Assembly (NCBI GenBank): GCA_019358985.1
Contig: JAHHIJ010000043.1
Coordinates: 1 to 49,105, forward strand
Reading direction: 5' to 3'
Length of the DNA stretch: 49,105 nucleotides
Origin: Tolypothrix brevis GSE-NOS-MK-07-07A
Lineage (GTDB): Bacteria; Cyanobacteriota; Cyanobacteriia; Cyanobacteriales; Nostocaceae
The notes beneath the pieces were generated by a model. That model was not told where the DNA came from. It saw nothing but the letters and a program-made list of their open reading frames with translations, and did not search any database. The first letter of the stretch is position 1. Every line of letters starts with the position of its first letter. The translations under genes were made by a program, and so were the position numbers. Shown one piece after another: positions 23,447 to 41,282 of the stretch.

Positions 23447-23540
23447 TAGACATAGGAGTGGAAATGAACTATGCTTTGCCCCAAACCCTTGTAGAGACGT
23501 AGCACTGCTACGTCTTTACATTGTTTTCTGGAGATGTCTA
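23447..23540. mobile_element. Composite MITE-like element carrying a hairpin repeat, copy A
   Basis: The left end starts TAGACATAGGAGTG; the right end TCTGGAGATGTCTA (23527-23540) is complementary over its outer eight bases. Inside are GCCCCAAACCCTT and a complete GTAGAGACG-type hairpin (23491-23519, core TAGCACTGCTA). The same arrangement recurs at 23972-24063. Confidence 0.75.
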
Positions 23541-23629
23541 TTATAGAAAAATTCACCCTCGAAAGTAGCAATTAATTCTTACAGCAAATTTCAGGTAGAT
23601 GAGGTACATACGTAAAACCCAAAACCCTT

Positions 23630-23658
23630 GATTAGACGTAGCATTGCTACGTCTCTAC
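23630..23658. repeat. Hairpin repeat, TAGCA/TGCTA-core type
   Basis: GATTAGACG, core TAGCATTGCTA, CGTCTCTAC. The preceding AAAACCCTT matches the sequence found left of the hairpin in the composite elements, so it may be a remnant of one. Confidence 0.85.
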
Positions 23659-32283: not shown

Positions 32284-32979
32284 TCATACATATACATCTA
32301 TAGATTCTTGCGCTTCACGGTGCAATCCTATAGCGATGCGGAACATTTCGTGTCCGGTATGCAGATAATGTTCATCGTAGTTCAAAGGGAAATATTCTAA
32401 CTCGTCAAGTCCATCGGCGATACGATTCAGGCTGTAGTAAAGGTGAGCCGCAGCTCTTGCTAAACTTGGGGGATTCGGTAGAGAATGAAAACTAATTTGT
32501 GCCTGCTTGAGGTCATTTCGACAGGTGTTTAAGTAATCTTGAAATTCTTCTAATAATTCATCATCAAAGGGATCGGCGGCTAGTTGATCAATTTGGTCTT
32601 CTAGAGAATCGAGAATGCCACTAACTAAGCGATTGACTGGTTGATAAACTAGGTGCAGCCATGCCTCAATTTGGTCATCAATATCGCGTCCGGTTCGCCT
32701 TGTTGCTTTGTAACGTTGTTGAGCAGATGCCGTGCGTTGTTGGCGATCGCTCTCAAATTTTTGGGACTTGTCGCCCAGTTTTTGGTCATAATTTAGGCGA
32801 CTTTCTGCGTCGCCTAAAACTTCATATGCTGCATTAATGTGGATAATCTGCTCACGTTCTGCTGTTTGTTGATTAGTATCCGGATGAAATAATTTTACTA
32901 AGCGGCGATAAGCCTGCTTAATTTCCGCTTGACTTGCATTCGGACTTACTTTAAGAGTTTCGTAATAATTAGATGCCAT
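32284..32979 (-). CDS. J-domain protein (DnaJ-like)
   Basis: A 231-residue protein with an N-terminal J domain (about 3-65): YYETLKVSPNASQAEIKQAYRRLVKLFHPDTN contains the invariant HPD, and AAYEVLGDAESRLNYD completes the fold. There is no Gly/Phe region or zinc finger, so this is a type III J protein that would recruit a DnaK to a specific client. The C-terminal 150 residues are helical and rich in Leu, Asp and Glu (DDQIEAWLHLVYQPVNRLVSGILDSLEDQ), of a kind common in cyanobacteria with unknown client. Confidence 0.92.
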   Translation of the reverse strand: MASNYYETLKVSPNASQAEIKQAYRRLVKLFHPDTNQQTAEREQIIHINAAYEVLGDAESRLNYDQKLGDKSQKFESDRQQRTASAQQRYKATRRTGRDIDDQIEAWLHLVYQPVNRLVSGILDSLEDQIDQLAADPFDDELLEEFQDYLNTCRNDLKQAQISFHSLPNPPSLARAAAHLYYSLNRIADGLDELEYFPLNYDEHYLHTGHEMFRIAIGLHREAQESIDVYV

Positions 32980-33239: not shown

Positions 33240-33677
33240 CTAAATGTAGTACATGATATCTAACTGCCGCCGTGCATCTCGTTTCTCACAGAGATCCTGA
33301 AGCGTGTATTTTTGTAAAACTGCGTTTGCTGCTTGACGTGCTTCAAGCCAGATATCTTCTATAACACCACTGTCCACCGTTTTCGCCTGGACATCTTCAT
33401 CACACGTCCGCACATCTAACCCTTCCAAACATCCCATAACCTCAAAAATTGTTATTTTCCAAGGTTCTCGTGATAGAATATATCCTCCTTTTGATCCGCG
33501 TTGGCTTTTGAGTATACCTCCACGTCTTAAAGTTGCCAGCAGTTGTTCCAGATAGCGATCGGGTATATTTTGTTGTGCCGCAATGGTACGAATTTGCAGT
33601 GGTTCACCGCTTTGGTAATGAGTTGCCAACTCTAATAAGGCAAGAATTGCGTATTCTGATTTACACGATATTTCCAC
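33240..33677 (-). CDS. Rrf2 family transcriptional regulator
   Basis: A 145-residue protein with the Rrf2 winged helix: KSEYAILALLELATHY, IRTIAAQQNIPDRYLEQLLATLRRGGILKSQRGSKGGYIL. Only two cysteines are present, in VRTCDEDV and LQDLCEKRD, rather than the three-Cys cluster of the Fe-S sensor IscR, so it is closer to CymR-like or uncharacterised cyanobacterial members. It starts with GTG and no strong Shine-Dalgarno. There is no iron-sulfur or cysteine gene beside it; the target is unknown. Confidence 0.9.
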   Translation of the reverse strand: MEISCKSEYAILALLELATHYQSGEPLQIRTIAAQQNIPDRYLEQLLATLRRGGILKSQRGSKGGYILSREPWKITIFEVMGCLEGLDVRTCDEDVQAKTVDSGVIEDIWLEARQAANAVLQKYTLQDLCEKRDARRQLDIMYYI

Positions 33678-33991: not shown

Positions 33992-35956
33992 CTAGAAGGT
34001 GAATGTTGTTCTGAGCGTACCGATAAACGCATCACTGTTATCGCTATTTTGACCAGGAGAGGTCAACCAAATCACACCAGGGGTGATGGAAACGTTATCA
34101 GACACGCGATACTTGTAGAAACCTTCAACTTGATAAGGAATATCTCTTGAATTACGACCGGTACGACCCAAAGCGTAAGGTTGTGCGCCACCGAAGATAC
34201 CTAAAACGTTACCCTTCTTACCAAAGTCAGGTAGGGCTATGCCGGCTCCGTAGCTCCAAGCTTCAAAATTATCATTACTACCGAAGCCGTTAACATCAGA
34301 GTAAGAGACAAAGCCGCTGATAGACAGTTTGTCACTTGGTCTAACGGCTGCTGACAGACCGTAGGAGTTACTGGAGGATGCGCTTTGAATACCTGTTGCA
34401 GAGTTAACACCTAAATTGTTGGCTTGTTGAGTACCCACTAAACCAACATTTTGTCCTTGGAATCCACCTGCATCAAATAAAGCACTGCCAGCACCGTGGT
34501 AGCCGTGGACATAGGTTGCAGCTAATGCCACACGCTCACCCAAGTTAAAGTTCACTTGTCCTAAAGCAGCATAATTACCATTGAATATACCTTGACCTAT
34601 GCCAGGATTATTCGGTTCCGATCCCAAGTAACCTAAAGTTAATCCGCTTGGTTTCAACAGACCACCGCTTTTGCCAAAGTTGAAGTTAAGCGCTGCACCT
34701 GCACCACCACCAATCCGGAAGATGGGGTTTTCCGAAGCAAATGTAGTTAGAGCGCCGTTACCGCCGTCATAGTCCTCAAAGTAAGGGTTGACAGTGGCTG
34801 CATAGTCGCTATGAACACCTCCGGTTGCTGAAACGTAAAGTCTAGCAGGTCCAATGGGGACGTAATACGCCAACCAGTCTAGAACCACACCGTTATCATT
34901 TTGTTCTCTACCGGTTACGTTAAAGGTTTGAAGACCTTCAGCACTACGCTCCGAGGGGTCTAAAACTCCGTTTCTATTCGTGTCTATACCACCAGTACCT
35001 AGATTAAATTGTCCGGCATTACCAGTAGCTAGACGGGTGTGCAGGACGTCTTTCCCTGTGAAGCTGGTTTGCAAGTCCAAACGTATTCTTTCTTGGAAGA
35101 CGGTGTTATTTCTGTCACCAGCTCGATCGCCAAAAACATCAGAAAGGGCGAAAATAGCTTCACCTACCAACTTGGTGGTAGTAGAGAATTGATTTGCCTC
35201 TAGTTCAGCAGACCGAGCTTCCAACGCATCTACACGTCCGCGTAGGGTTGCCAGTTCTGCGGAAAATTCTTCTTGCAAACGCTGTAAGGTCGCCAAATCT
35301 TCTTTTGTTACCAAGTCAGCGGTGGCTGTGGCAATCAATTCGTTAACGCGATCCAAACAAGCATTTAAACCAGCGGCAAATTCATAACGGGTTAATGCAC
35401 GGTTCCCGCGATAGGTTCCATTTGGATAACCTGCGATACAACCGTAACGCTCAACTAAGGACTGCAACGCTTGGAATGCCCAATCTGTGGGTTGTACGTC
35501 AGAAAACTGCGAAACCGATGTTACTTGAGCCTGAGAACTACCGTTTTTGCCTTCGTTGCCGTACTTGTTAACTTGATCTAAAGTGTTAACTTGAGTTTGT
35601 TCTACTTGAGCTAATACTTGTGGCTTTTTACCAACTGTAGTGGCGGTAGATGTTGAAATTACTGTGCTGTTTTGTACTTGAGCTACTTCTTGTTTTTGGG
35701 CAACTTCTGTAGCGGCAGTTGGGAATACTATACCTTTAGAAGTATTTTTGGAAGCTTCTAGTTTATCTACTGTTGGTAGAATTTCTAGTTTGTCAGCTTG
35801 TAATGTTACTTCTGATTTTTCAGTTTGTAATGTTTCTGTCTGAATTGCCTTCTGGGTGGTTGTAGTTGGAGCTGCTATCGCTGTTGCGGAAACTAACAAC
35901 GTTGCTCCTAAAACTGCTGGACTAACCACCAAGGATTTCCACAATAAATTAGACAT
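33992..35956 (-). CDS. SLH-domain OprB-type outer-membrane porin
   Basis: The ATG at 35956 follows AAGAGGAAAG and opens a signal peptide (MSNLLWKSLVVSPAVLGATLLVSATAIAAP); the longer frame to 36004 would place 16 residues before it. The 654-residue precursor has a Val/Gln/Thr-rich linker, an SLH domain (SQFSDVQPTDWAFQALQSLV...RYEFAAGLNACLDRV, about 145-205) that binds peptidoglycan, a coiled coil (LQRLQEEFSAELATLRGRVDALEAR) and an OprB-like beta-barrel of about 390 residues ending TTFTF, with the C-terminal Phe of outer-membrane proteins. Cyanobacterial relatives have been linked to inorganic-ion or iron uptake; the solute here is unknown. Confidence 0.94.
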   Translation of the reverse strand: MSNLLWKSLVVSPAVLGATLLVSATAIAAPTTTTQKAIQTETLQTEKSEVTLQADKLEILPTVDKLEASKNTSKGIVFPTAATEVAQKQEVAQVQNSTVISTSTATTVGKKPQVLAQVEQTQVNTLDQVNKYGNEGKNGSSQAQVTSVSQFSDVQPTDWAFQALQSLVERYGCIAGYPNGTYRGNRALTRYEFAAGLNACLDRVNELIATATADLVTKEDLATLQRLQEEFSAELATLRGRVDALEARSAELEANQFSTTTKLVGEAIFALSDVFGDRAGDRNNTVFQERIRLDLQTSFTGKDVLHTRLATGNAGQFNLGTGGIDTNRNGVLDPSERSAEGLQTFNVTGREQNDNGVVLDWLAYYVPIGPARLYVSATGGVHSDYAATVNPYFEDYDGGNGALTTFASENPIFRIGGGAGAALNFNFGKSGGLLKPSGLTLGYLGSEPNNPGIGQGIFNGNYAALGQVNFNLGERVALAATYVHGYHGAGSALFDAGGFQGQNVGLVGTQQANNLGVNSATGIQSASSSNSYGLSAAVRPSDKLSISGFVSYSDVNGFGSNDNFEAWSYGAGIALPDFGKKGNVLGIFGGAQPYALGRTGRNSRDIPYQVEGFYKYRVSDNVSITPGVIWLTSPGQNSDNSDAFIGTLRTTFTF

Positions 35957-36281
35957 CTTTCCTCTTTTCCTCACACCTTGTATAGATAACCTTGTCTGTT
36001 GCACCTATTCCGGAAAATGCGACATCTTTTTTAAACCTTGTATATGAGGCTTAATTGTCACCACTACAATTCTAGTTTTTGCAAAGTTAATAACTATAAT
36101 TTTGTATAAAAATTTATGTGATTAACTTAATCCAAAAACTTACCCTTATACTTTAGCTATTATAAAACATCTAACTCATCTGACAAGGTAGATGCGATCG
36201 CCTCATAAACTGTCACACATCCCAGGCGATAAGAAATTTATTGTTGATGAAAAAACTTAAAAAACACCCTTAAATAACTAT

Positions 36282-36319
36282 CCGCCCGGAATTAGATCAG
36301 ATAATCTAATTCCGGGCGG
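36282..36319 (-). promoter_or_regulatory. Perfect 16-bp hairpin, possible terminator or attenuator
   Basis: CCGCCCGGAATTAGAT (36282-36297) and ATCTAATTCCGGGCGG (36304-36319) pair perfectly around a six-base loop. On the - strand it follows the long-range stem (36326-36469) by six bases, and T runs come only about 17 bases later, so it is not a canonical terminator. It stands 326 bases before the porin start. Confidence 0.7.
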
Positions 36320-36325
36320 TCTAGC

Positions 36326-36469
36326 GGGTCTTCAGATTGCAACCAGACTGTCGGAAGGAACTCCGAGCGAGCCTTGCTACTTGAGCTAACTTAGTCTCTC
36401 AACAGAGCTAAGGCTAACTTTTAGAGAACAGCCCCGACACACAGCCGGCTAACTGCAATCTGATGACCC
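36326..36469 (-). ncRNA. Candidate structured RNA overlapping a leader-peptide ORF
   Basis: GGGTC-T-TCAGATTGCA (36326-36341) is complementary to TGCAATCTGA-T-GACCC (36454-36469): 15 pairs with one mismatch closing a 112-base interior. The 5' arm on the - strand lies within codons 8-13 of the small ORF at 36421-36492, so ribosomes on that ORF would open the stem. I do not recognise the structure as a known riboswitch class. Strand and RNA status are inferred from the Shine-Dalgarno and the hairpin order; the DNA could instead be a mobile palindrome. Confidence 0.5.
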
Positions 36470-36492
36470 ATGCGTATACTACTTTCTATCAT
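36421..36492 (-). CDS. 23-codon ORF with perfect Shine-Dalgarno (leader-peptide candidate)
   Basis: AAGGAGGTGAT (36507-36497) is a full-length complement of the 16S rRNA 3' end, and the ATG at 36492 follows GGAGG at eight bases, ideal for initiation. The peptide starts MIESSIRMGHQIAV and ends SRLCVGAVL before a TAA. It is too short for a typical protein, contains one Cys and has no obvious signal. Its codons 8-13 form one arm of the long stem (36326-36469). It could be an attenuation leader, a small protein, or a sensor of translation. Confidence 0.55.
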   Translation of the reverse strand: MIESSIRMGHQIAVSRLCVGAVL

Positions 36493-36537
36493 GGGCATCA
36501 CCTCCTTGTTGCCTAAGTGGTCTTATTTTCAAAAAGG

Positions 36538-36554
36538 CAGAGCATTTTGCTCTG
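36538..36554. terminator. Bidirectional terminator-like hairpin
   Basis: CAGAGCA (36538-36544) and TGCTCTG (36548-36554) pair around TTT. On the + strand GGTTTTT follows; on the - strand CCTTTTT follows. It could end transcripts from both sides and isolates the small-ORF unit from the psbD side. Confidence 0.7.
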
Positions 36555-36584
36555 GGTTTTTACACCTTCAATTAATATAACACA

Positions 36585-36714
36585 TTAGACATAGGCGTGA
36601 AAAAGAATGTAGAGACGTAGCAGTGAAAAAAAATCTAGAGACGTAGCAGTGAAAAAAATCTAGAGACGTAGCAGTGCTACGTCTCTACAAGGGTTCTGGA
36701 TCAGGCATATCTAA
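36585..36714. mobile_element. Composite element with triplicated hairpin half, copy C
   Basis: The left end TTAGACATAGG (36585-36595) matches copy A at 23447; the right end ATATCTAA (36707-36714) complements TTAGACAT with one mismatch. Inside, TAGAGACGTAGCAGTG followed by an A run appears at 36610, 36636 and 36661 (period 25-26), and only the third copy continues into a complete hairpin (36661-36688). Confidence 0.8.
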
Positions 36715-36736: not shown

Positions 36737-36764
36737 AAAAAACCCCCACTAAAAAAGGCGGGGG
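36737..36764 (-). terminator. Rho-independent terminator of psbD
   Basis: On the - strand CCCCCGCC (36764-36757), a T-rich loop and GTGGGGG (down to 36743) form a GC-rich stem followed by TTTTTTATTT. It lies 50 bases after the psbD stop codon, showing that transcription ends there and that no psbC follows. Confidence 0.85.
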
Positions 36765-36813: not shown

Positions 36814-37869
36814 TTACAGAGCGTTACCGCGAGGTAGTACCTCTTCAGGGAATACAAATTGTTCGTGAGGCTGATCTTGAGGAGCCATCCAAGCGCGGAT
36901 ACCCTCGTTCAGCAAAATGTTTTTGGTATAGAATGTTTCAAACTCTGGGTCTTCTGCCGCACGCAATTCTTGCGATACGAAGTCATAAGCCCGCAAGTTC
37001 AGCGCCAAACCGACAATTCCAATTGCTGCCATCCACAAGCCTGTGACTGGGACAAACAACATGAAGAAGTGCAGCCAACGCTTGTTGGAGAAAGCAATGC
37101 CGAATATCTGTGACCAGAAACGGTTTGCTGTCACCATTGAGTAGGTTTCTTCTGATTGAGTTGGGTTGAAAGCACGGAAGGTATTTGCACCTTCGCCATC
37201 TTCAAACAGAGTATTTTCCACTGTTGCACCGTGAATCGCGCAAAGTAATGCACCACCCAATACACCAGCTACACCCATCATGTGGAAGGGGTTTAAGGTG
37301 AAGTTGTGGAAACCTTGGATAAACAAGATGAAGCGGAAAATTGCTGCTACGCCGAAGCTAGGAGCAAAGAACCAGCTTGATTGTCCCAAGGGGTACATTA
37401 AAAATACGCTGACGAATACAGCGATGGGGGCAGAAAATGCGATCGCATTATAAGGACGAATCCCTACTAAACGAGCGATTTCAAATTGTCGCAACATGAA
37501 GCCAATTAAAGCGAAGGCTCCGTGTAAAGCTACAAATGCCCACAATCCACCCAATTGAAACCAACGGGTGAAGTCGCCTTGTGCTTCTGGTCCCCACAGC
37601 AACATCAAAGAGTGTCCCAAGCTATTTGCTGGGGTGGATACTGCTACTGTCAAGAAGTTACAGCCTTCCAGGTATGATGAGGCTAATCCGTGGGTGTACC
37701 AAGAAGTGACGAATGTTGTACCGGTTAGCCAACCGCCTAATGCTAGGAAGGCGGTTGGGAATAATAATATCCCTGACCAACCTACGAATACAAAGCGATC
37801 GCGCTTCAACCAGTCGTCTAGTACGTCAAACCACCCTCTACTGGGGGCGCGTCCTACTGCGATGGTCAT
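36814..37869 (-). CDS. psbD: Photosystem II D2 protein, solitary gene copy
   Basis: The 351-residue product starts [20 protein letters not shown] at 37869, with GGAG ten bases upstream; the longer frame to 37953 is not used. D2 pairs with D1 in the thylakoid PSII reaction centre. Key residues are present: Tyr159 (redox TyrD), His188 (its partner), His196 (P680 chlorophyll ligand), His213 and His267 (non-haem iron) and Trp252 (QA site). Compared with typical D2 from memory, it has Phe190 where Trp191 is usual (GFHNF), Ala111 for Pro beside the accessory-chlorophyll His116, Ala120 for Gly, and Cys70 for Ala. The gene ends at its own terminator and lacks the overlapping psbC of the usual psbDC operon, so it is probably a second psbD copy. 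Confidence 0.96.
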
Positions 37870-38155
37870 TTCAGGAAATCTCCAAAAGTTTATAAGTTCA
37901 GGTTTTGTCAGCCTATAGATTGCGATTTTACTGCTATCTATAAGACAGAACACAAACTGGGTTATTAATCCAGTTTACAATTTTTTACTGTGTCTCATTA
38001 TTCTATAACTATTCTTTCTCATTTTTGTACACAATTTTTAACTTAATTTAATATTTATATTTATTTAAGATTTATAAGGGGTAATAAGCACGCTCGCAAT
38101 GGGCATTGCCCACACGTTAAAATGATTGCTACAGTTAAATTTCATTAACCGATTC

Positions 38156-41210: not shown

Positions 41211-41282
<72 letters not shown>

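Follow-up and report, generated by a model that had tools for sequence, protein, structure and literature searches.

The minus strand at positions 36584-36272 of the window, the 49,105-nt stretch of DNA analysed here, holds a compact gene made up of a promoter motif, a perfect Shine-Dalgarno (SD) sequence, a 23-codon open reading frame (ORF), a long-range helix and an intrinsic terminator. We lean, with modest confidence, towards the view that this is a free-standing small RNA (sRNA) gene with a predicted length of about 290 nt, most likely a homologue of ncl0160, and that its RNA is translated and probably bifunctional, with translation switching it between a closed and an open form.

Anatomy of the element

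Read 5' to 3', the unit consists of TGTGTTATATT, a small hairpin with a T-run, AAGGAGGTGAT, the ORF, a variable region, the 3' arm of the helix, and a terminator hairpin with a T-rich tail. These features and the two adjoining genes are as follows.

36574..36584, minus strand: extended -10 promoter motif TGTGTTATATT, a match to TGTGYTANNNT upstream of the SD
near 36567, minus strand: predicted transcription start site (TSS), placed from the TGTGTTATATT promoter motif
36538..36554, minus strand: small hairpin with a T-run after it, found in most of the 30 closest loci and lying within the predicted 5' UTR
36497..36507, minus strand: Shine-Dalgarno sequence AAGGAGGTGAT, from the sequence and the GGAGG-ATG spacing
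36421..36492, minus strand: 23-codon ORF MIESSIRMGHQIAVSRLCVGAVL, ATG at 36492 and TAA ending at 36421, from the sequence and a 90-locus comparison
36478..36483, minus strand: codons 4-5, AGT AGT (Ser Ser), near-invariant in 45 loci
36423..36469, minus strand: 5' arm of the long-range helix, codons 9-23, from folding and covariation
36326..36364, minus strand: 3' arm of the long-range helix, from folding and covariation
36272..36324, minus strand: intrinsic terminator, a CTA-GA-CCGC..GCGG-A-TAG hairpin with a T-rich tail, from folding and covariation
36814..37953, minus strand: psbA (D1), upstream neighbour (PF00124)
33992..36004, minus strand: SLH/OprB porin gene, downstream neighbour (PF04966 and PF00395)

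The helix runs from GGGTC (36469) to GACCC (36326) and spans 144 bases, so the long-range stem with ORF codons in one arm that the first-pass annotation had described is indeed present, the arm being codons 9-23. The perfect hairpin that it had placed behind this stem lies at 36319-36282, and has 17 pairs, rather than 16, around a 4-base loop. From promoter motif to terminator the unit measures about 290 nt, of which the TSS end is predicted only. The element RNA has a minimum free energy (MFE) of -103.8 kcal/mol with a z-score of -6.39, and none of 200 dinucleotide shuffles was as low.

The element is single-copy in its own genome, where the second match is the terminator hairpin against itself on the other strand, and it is therefore not a dispersed repeat. 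Together with the single match in each of 121 positive genomes, this rules out a mobile repeat, the possibility for which dispersed copies had been named as the sign. A tRNA or tmRNA was also ruled out, as ARAGORN called a single gene in the window, a tRNA-Asn at 41211-41282. The element likewise does not belong to a known Rfam family, since release 15 gave no match at the gathering threshold in the window element, nor did any of 13 related loci match at that score; with E values up to 10 there were eight matches around the element, all under the gathering score.

The motif TGTGYTANNNT was present in 57 of 90 loci between -105 and -15 relative to the SD, compared to 0.6 expected in shuffles and 0/90 in a downstream window of equal length. 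It was found in 29 of the 30 closest loci (L003-L032) and in 28 of the 60 distant loci (L033-L072 and L103-L122), there at -30 to -86, and was missing from 33 of the 90. The counts of this motif and of neighbouring genes include one locus with a misplaced anchor (L106), which was mended for the terminator and ORF counts. In the closest loci the small hairpin sits between the promoter motif and the SD. Because the conserved TGTGTTATATT (36584-36574) lies upstream of this hairpin (36554-36538), the hairpin falls within the predicted 5' UTR; it does have T-runs on both strands, as the first-pass annotation stated, but probably does not isolate the unit in the way proposed there. The promoter and terminator motifs support the predicted minus-strand orientation. 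The accessible text of PMC3610870 gave no TSS near the locus.

Distribution in cyanobacteria

The element is widespread in cyanobacteria but missing from some genomes. A 201-base query had matches in 140 of 149 relatives, mostly one per genome. A covariance model (R1) built on the 101 positions at the 5' end was positive in 121 genomes of a 386-genome draw from the phylum, with one match each, and all of the positives were within the class (the share of the draw outside the class is not stated). Because R1 carries a local 15-pair fold and not the long helix, the searches made with it are mainly sequence searches. Family f41, which we take to be the marine Prochlorococcus/Synechococcus lineage, gave only two weak R1 matches (E values of 5.6e-5 and 4e-4), and when it was searched with the DNA of one of its own members, 52 of 81 genomes matched. 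Both f36 and f41, which are deeply split families, have kept the element, and so has the order of the window.

Nine genomes without a first match were searched again, namely eight of the nine negatives among the 149 relatives and one genome (G380) from the phylum draw; a relative with 54% completeness (G003) was left out. A pattern search found the element in 0/9 of them, and in a model search four of the nine had best E values of 0.02 to 4, which were counted as none. Two near-complete genomes, both from one genus in the family of the window, are without the element. Because the element was absent on this renewed search, these two genomes included, it is dispensable in the negative genomes.

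Structure and covariation

RNAalifold, applied to 38 diverse loci, proposed both the long helix and the terminator. In the alignment of these 38 loci, 29 of the 45 pairs in the two structures had changes on both sides, against a shuffle mean of 12.2 and with 0/500 shuffles as high, and 95.9% of the cells held standard pairs, while controls with slid partners reached 29.6-51.2%. The covariation in the stem that had been suggested as a check is therefore there. In single-sequence folds, 65 of 77 loci showed pairing between the block at codon 9 and the stretch that precedes the terminator, and the other 12 did not. The terminator hairpin formed in the MFE structure of 76 of the 77 full RNAs, and in all 77 once everything up to and including the stop codon had been removed; 13 of the 90 loci were left out of these terminator folds, as the pattern did not recognise the end of their T-run.

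The 20 loci of f41 differ in sequence and have the same order of helix blocks from codon 9 on (GGGTC with GACCC). The terminator is present in 19 of them, and the remaining locus (L254) is cut before it. Because the helix hardly varies within this family, f41 adds topology and not covariation. A hairpin at the start codon (GCCCAUG/CAUGGGU) was considered as a translation switch and rejected, since 0/7 of its pairs changed on both sides and the observed value equalled that of the shuffles.

Reading frame and peptide

The 23-codon frame behind a perfect SD, noted by the first-pass annotation, is found in the sequence and is kept in related loci. ORF length was 23 aa in 75 of the 90 loci, 24 in nine, 17 in five and 34 in one, so that 84 loci have 23-24 aa counted from the second ATG; an in-frame ATG two codons upstream, present in 83 of the 90, would add two residues. 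In the 17-aa loci an earlier stop replaces the last six codons, and the 34-aa frame (L041) results from a one-base deletion. The 90 ORFs end in TAA (59), TAG (27) or TGA (4). The spacing from GGAGG to ATG is 8 nt in 88 of 89 loci and 9 nt in the other (L106 left out). Shifted frames contain stops in 75/90 and 88/90 loci, and the substitution score was higher in frame than in the shifted frames for codons 2-8 (-0.14 vs -1.14 and -1.74) and for codons 9-23 (0.29 vs -0.54 and -0.52). This comparison supports translation of the predicted ORF. For codons 2-8, the synonymous fraction was 0.088 in frame and 0.061 and 0.086 out of frame, and because the former is hardly above the latter, support for selection on the peptide itself is weak.

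The helix begins about +24 from the A of the ATG with a nearly fixed spacing, and the stop codon falls within the helix or at the end of it. Counting from residue 6, the first G comes at residue 9 in 80 of 89 loci, at residue 10 in seven and at residue 8 in two. At codons 10, 11 and 13-15, the amino acid changes and the pairing with the partner bases is kept. The peptide past residue 9 differs between lineages, and D/E-S-S and G9 are kept in most loci. Conservation, on which the first-pass annotation had made its reading depend, thus holds for the frame and the stem and fails for the peptide past residue 9. With both ORF and stem conserved, its general idea of a regulatory type of RNA with a translated-looking peptide is borne out.

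The element might instead be a small mRNA, in which the peptide of 17-24 residues is the working product and the fold merely tunes its translation or stability. The strong SD, the kept frame, the three-base indels that add AGT codons and the conservation of D/E-S-S and G9 in most loci would all suit such a gene, and the authors of PMC4734099, in the accessible part of that paper, call ncl0160 likely translated. It is less easily reconciled with the residues past position 9, which are not conserved between lineages, with an earlier stop that removes the last six codons in five loci, or with Ser codons 4-5, at which the 45 loci counted conserve the codon AGT and not just the amino acid. We consider a small mRNA rather doubtful, and favour an RNA with a translation-gated fold because base pairing has persisted where the peptide sequence has not. 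Being translated seems to be more important for this RNA than the peptide that results.

Among the serine codons, AGT is found at codon 4 in 43 and at codon 5 in all of 45 loci (those with 23 aa outside L003-L032), with no AGC or TCN, and AGC was seen at Ser codons in loci of other ORF lengths (L103, L105 and L110). Extra AGT codons, inserted as three-base indels, occur in L052, L055, L063, L105 and L122. These near-invariant codons, with runs that reach 3-4 Ser codons in some loci and a helix that starts at a nearly fixed distance, could point to a sensor of seryl-tRNA or decoding speed, in which a ribosome pausing on AGT-AGT just short of the helix keeps the helix closed; genes for a CysK-like protein and Rrf2 are recurrent neighbours. 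However, members of f41, many of which have a GTG start, carry Cys, His, Pro or TCC at codons 4-5 (with TGT or TCC among those at codon 5), and no effector gene accompanies the element throughout, which make a serine sensor very improbable.

Neighbouring genes

In the distant loci, the upstream gene is psbA or a CobB-like gene (the CobB name was given by eye). Downstream, a pterin-4a-carbinolamine dehydratase gene (PCD, PF01329) lies on the same strand in 22 of the 60, and other neighbours encode a porin, Rrf2, CysK (by eye) or a DnaJ protein. The PCD start is often 224-330 nt after the SD, and the median RNA end is at 237 nt. The order psbA-element-PCD-porin recurs in several families. Matches to the porin begin from about 0.36 kb to more than 3 kb past the element, or are absent from the fetched stretch. 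The next gene is convergent in 13 of the 60 distant loci (L040, L044, L051, L061, L067, L072, L105, L107, L112, L113, L114, L116 and L121), as counted on ORFs of at least 90 aa taken longest first, with just 424 bases available downstream in L041; small ORFs lying antisense to a colinear gene (L042, L103 and L110) were judged non-convergent. Five of the convergent proteins were confirmed by Pfam: citrate synthase, GSDH, Tab2, YchF and DUF29. In the genome of the window, both genes with a PCD domain are on other contigs. Because of this and of the convergent loci, we think that the unit can stand alone.

These neighbourhoods bear on two ways in which the element could act in cis. The first-pass annotation had favoured a translation-sensing attenuator of the porin gene. 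This was not upheld: nothing in the fold offers an alternative to the terminator, which forms with or without the ORF part, the start hairpin does not covary, the distance to the porin and the identity of the neighbours vary, some next genes are convergent, and PCD lies elsewhere in the window genome. A cis attenuator is unlikely for these reasons. The other way is that of an actuaton, in which the sRNA also serves as the 5' region of the downstream gene, often PCD and then the porin, through read-through of the terminator. Such a concept has been described in Synechocystis (PMC5386190, as far as its accessible text goes), and it would suit the frequent same-strand PCD at short distance and the recurrent gene order. 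It suits less well the 13 convergent loci, the location of both PCD-domain genes of the window genome, and a terminator that forms in 77/77 folds without the ORF part. We regard an actuaton as improbable.

Some further observations were made around the element. After the porin gene, on the same strand, the window contains genes for an Rrf2-type regulator (33240-33677) and a DnaJ-domain protein (32284-32979), and genes like these recur, with CysK, in distant loci. A gene for a Tab2/Atab2-like RNA-binding protein adjoins the element in L105 (411-1314 after the SD, opposite strand) and in L058 (327-1197 after the SD, same strand); the two were grouped by BLAST, with Pfam run on L105 only. Draft contigs (e.g. 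L006, L010 and L032) frequently stop 200-600 bases upstream of the element, in or at psbA, as expected from the collapse of repeated psbA genes. A strong terminator-like hairpin at 36743-36764, 50 bases past the psbA stop, is probably the terminator of psbA. The dispersed repeat GTAGAGACGTAGCA has 12 copies in the window with at most one mismatch (0.02 expected), at 36600-36690, 5324, 8482, 8603, 23491-23658, 24029 and 31134, and four of them lie between psbA and the element.

Relation to known RNAs

Dual-function sRNAs such as RNAIII, SgrS and SR1 are structured RNAs that also bear a short ORF. The element is likened to them by general design, and differs in that one arm of its main helix is the ORF. 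Leader-peptide attenuators, e.g. trpL, have an SD, a short ORF, a helix and a terminator in series, as the element does, but the element has neither a visible antiterminator nor a constant downstream gene. Like the Downstream-peptide RNA motif (RF01704) and Yfr6, it is a cyanobacterial structured RNA tied to a short ORF; according to the accessible text of PMC2864571, however, the RNA there is the 5' UTR of the ORF, whereas here the ORF is inside the helix.

The closest counterpart is ncl0160, for which the following is taken from the accessible part of PMC4734099, a 2016 study of sRNAs in Nostoc sp. PCC 7120. This widely distributed cyanobacterial sRNA was first seen in Synechocystis and named in a 2011 study cited there. 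It came from a pipeline that sought an intergenic TSS and a Rho-independent terminator 45-350 nt apart, and 83 homologues of it were counted among 89 genomes. It contains a conserved peptide of 23-25 aa behind a ribosome site, with TAA as the stop in 47 cases, TAG in 34 and TGA in two. The wide spread, peptide length, SD and stop usage are all close to those of our element. The two accounts differ in three respects: GTG starts were reported there, whereas the start taken in the 90 loci here is ATG; marine Prochlorococcus/Synechococcus were left out there, whereas we found a relative in f41; and the accessible text gives a predicted fold with no mention of covariation, which was counted for the element here. 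We are highly confident that the element is a homologue of ncl0160, by a match of description and not of sequence. It has probably already been described under that name, which probably contradicts the earlier statement that no described class matches.

Within the library searched, the name ncl0160 led to PMC4734099 alone and to no functional study, and a search with the letters of the peptide or SD found no match. The accessible texts of PMC2662882, PMC1242208, PMC3219970, PMC3960264, PMC5386190, PMC11221513 and PMC2864571 name no matching element, and Table 2 of PMC5126843, as available, begins at 26 aa.

A possible mode of action

The proposed course of events, which draws on the conserved sequence features described above, begins with transcription of the minus strand from the element's own predicted promoter to its own terminator. 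A ribosome would then load on the exposed SD and the first eight codons while the helix is still closed; given the size of the ribosome footprint, a loading ribosome would leave the helix closed. Elongation beyond codon 9 would have to melt the helix, which would close again once translation is over. The RNA may act in trans by way of the 3' arm, through RNA stability or through a protein bound to it. A stronger form of this proposal is a phylum-wide translation-gated switch, with a site for ribosome loading kept open beside a helix that the ORF itself helps to build. In this form, the 3' arm would be released for action in trans by the passing ribosome and not by a ligand, and the peptide would be largely a by-product. 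We offer this form tentatively and think it unlikely; if it is true, the switch would report on translation globally in oxygenic phototrophs.

An RNA gene has been kept in many cyanobacterial families, yet is without a match in Rfam. If its helix and ORF regulate each other, the conserved anatomy would offer clear mutations, and a function for the element would shed light on the way in which oxygenic phototrophs couple translation to gene control.
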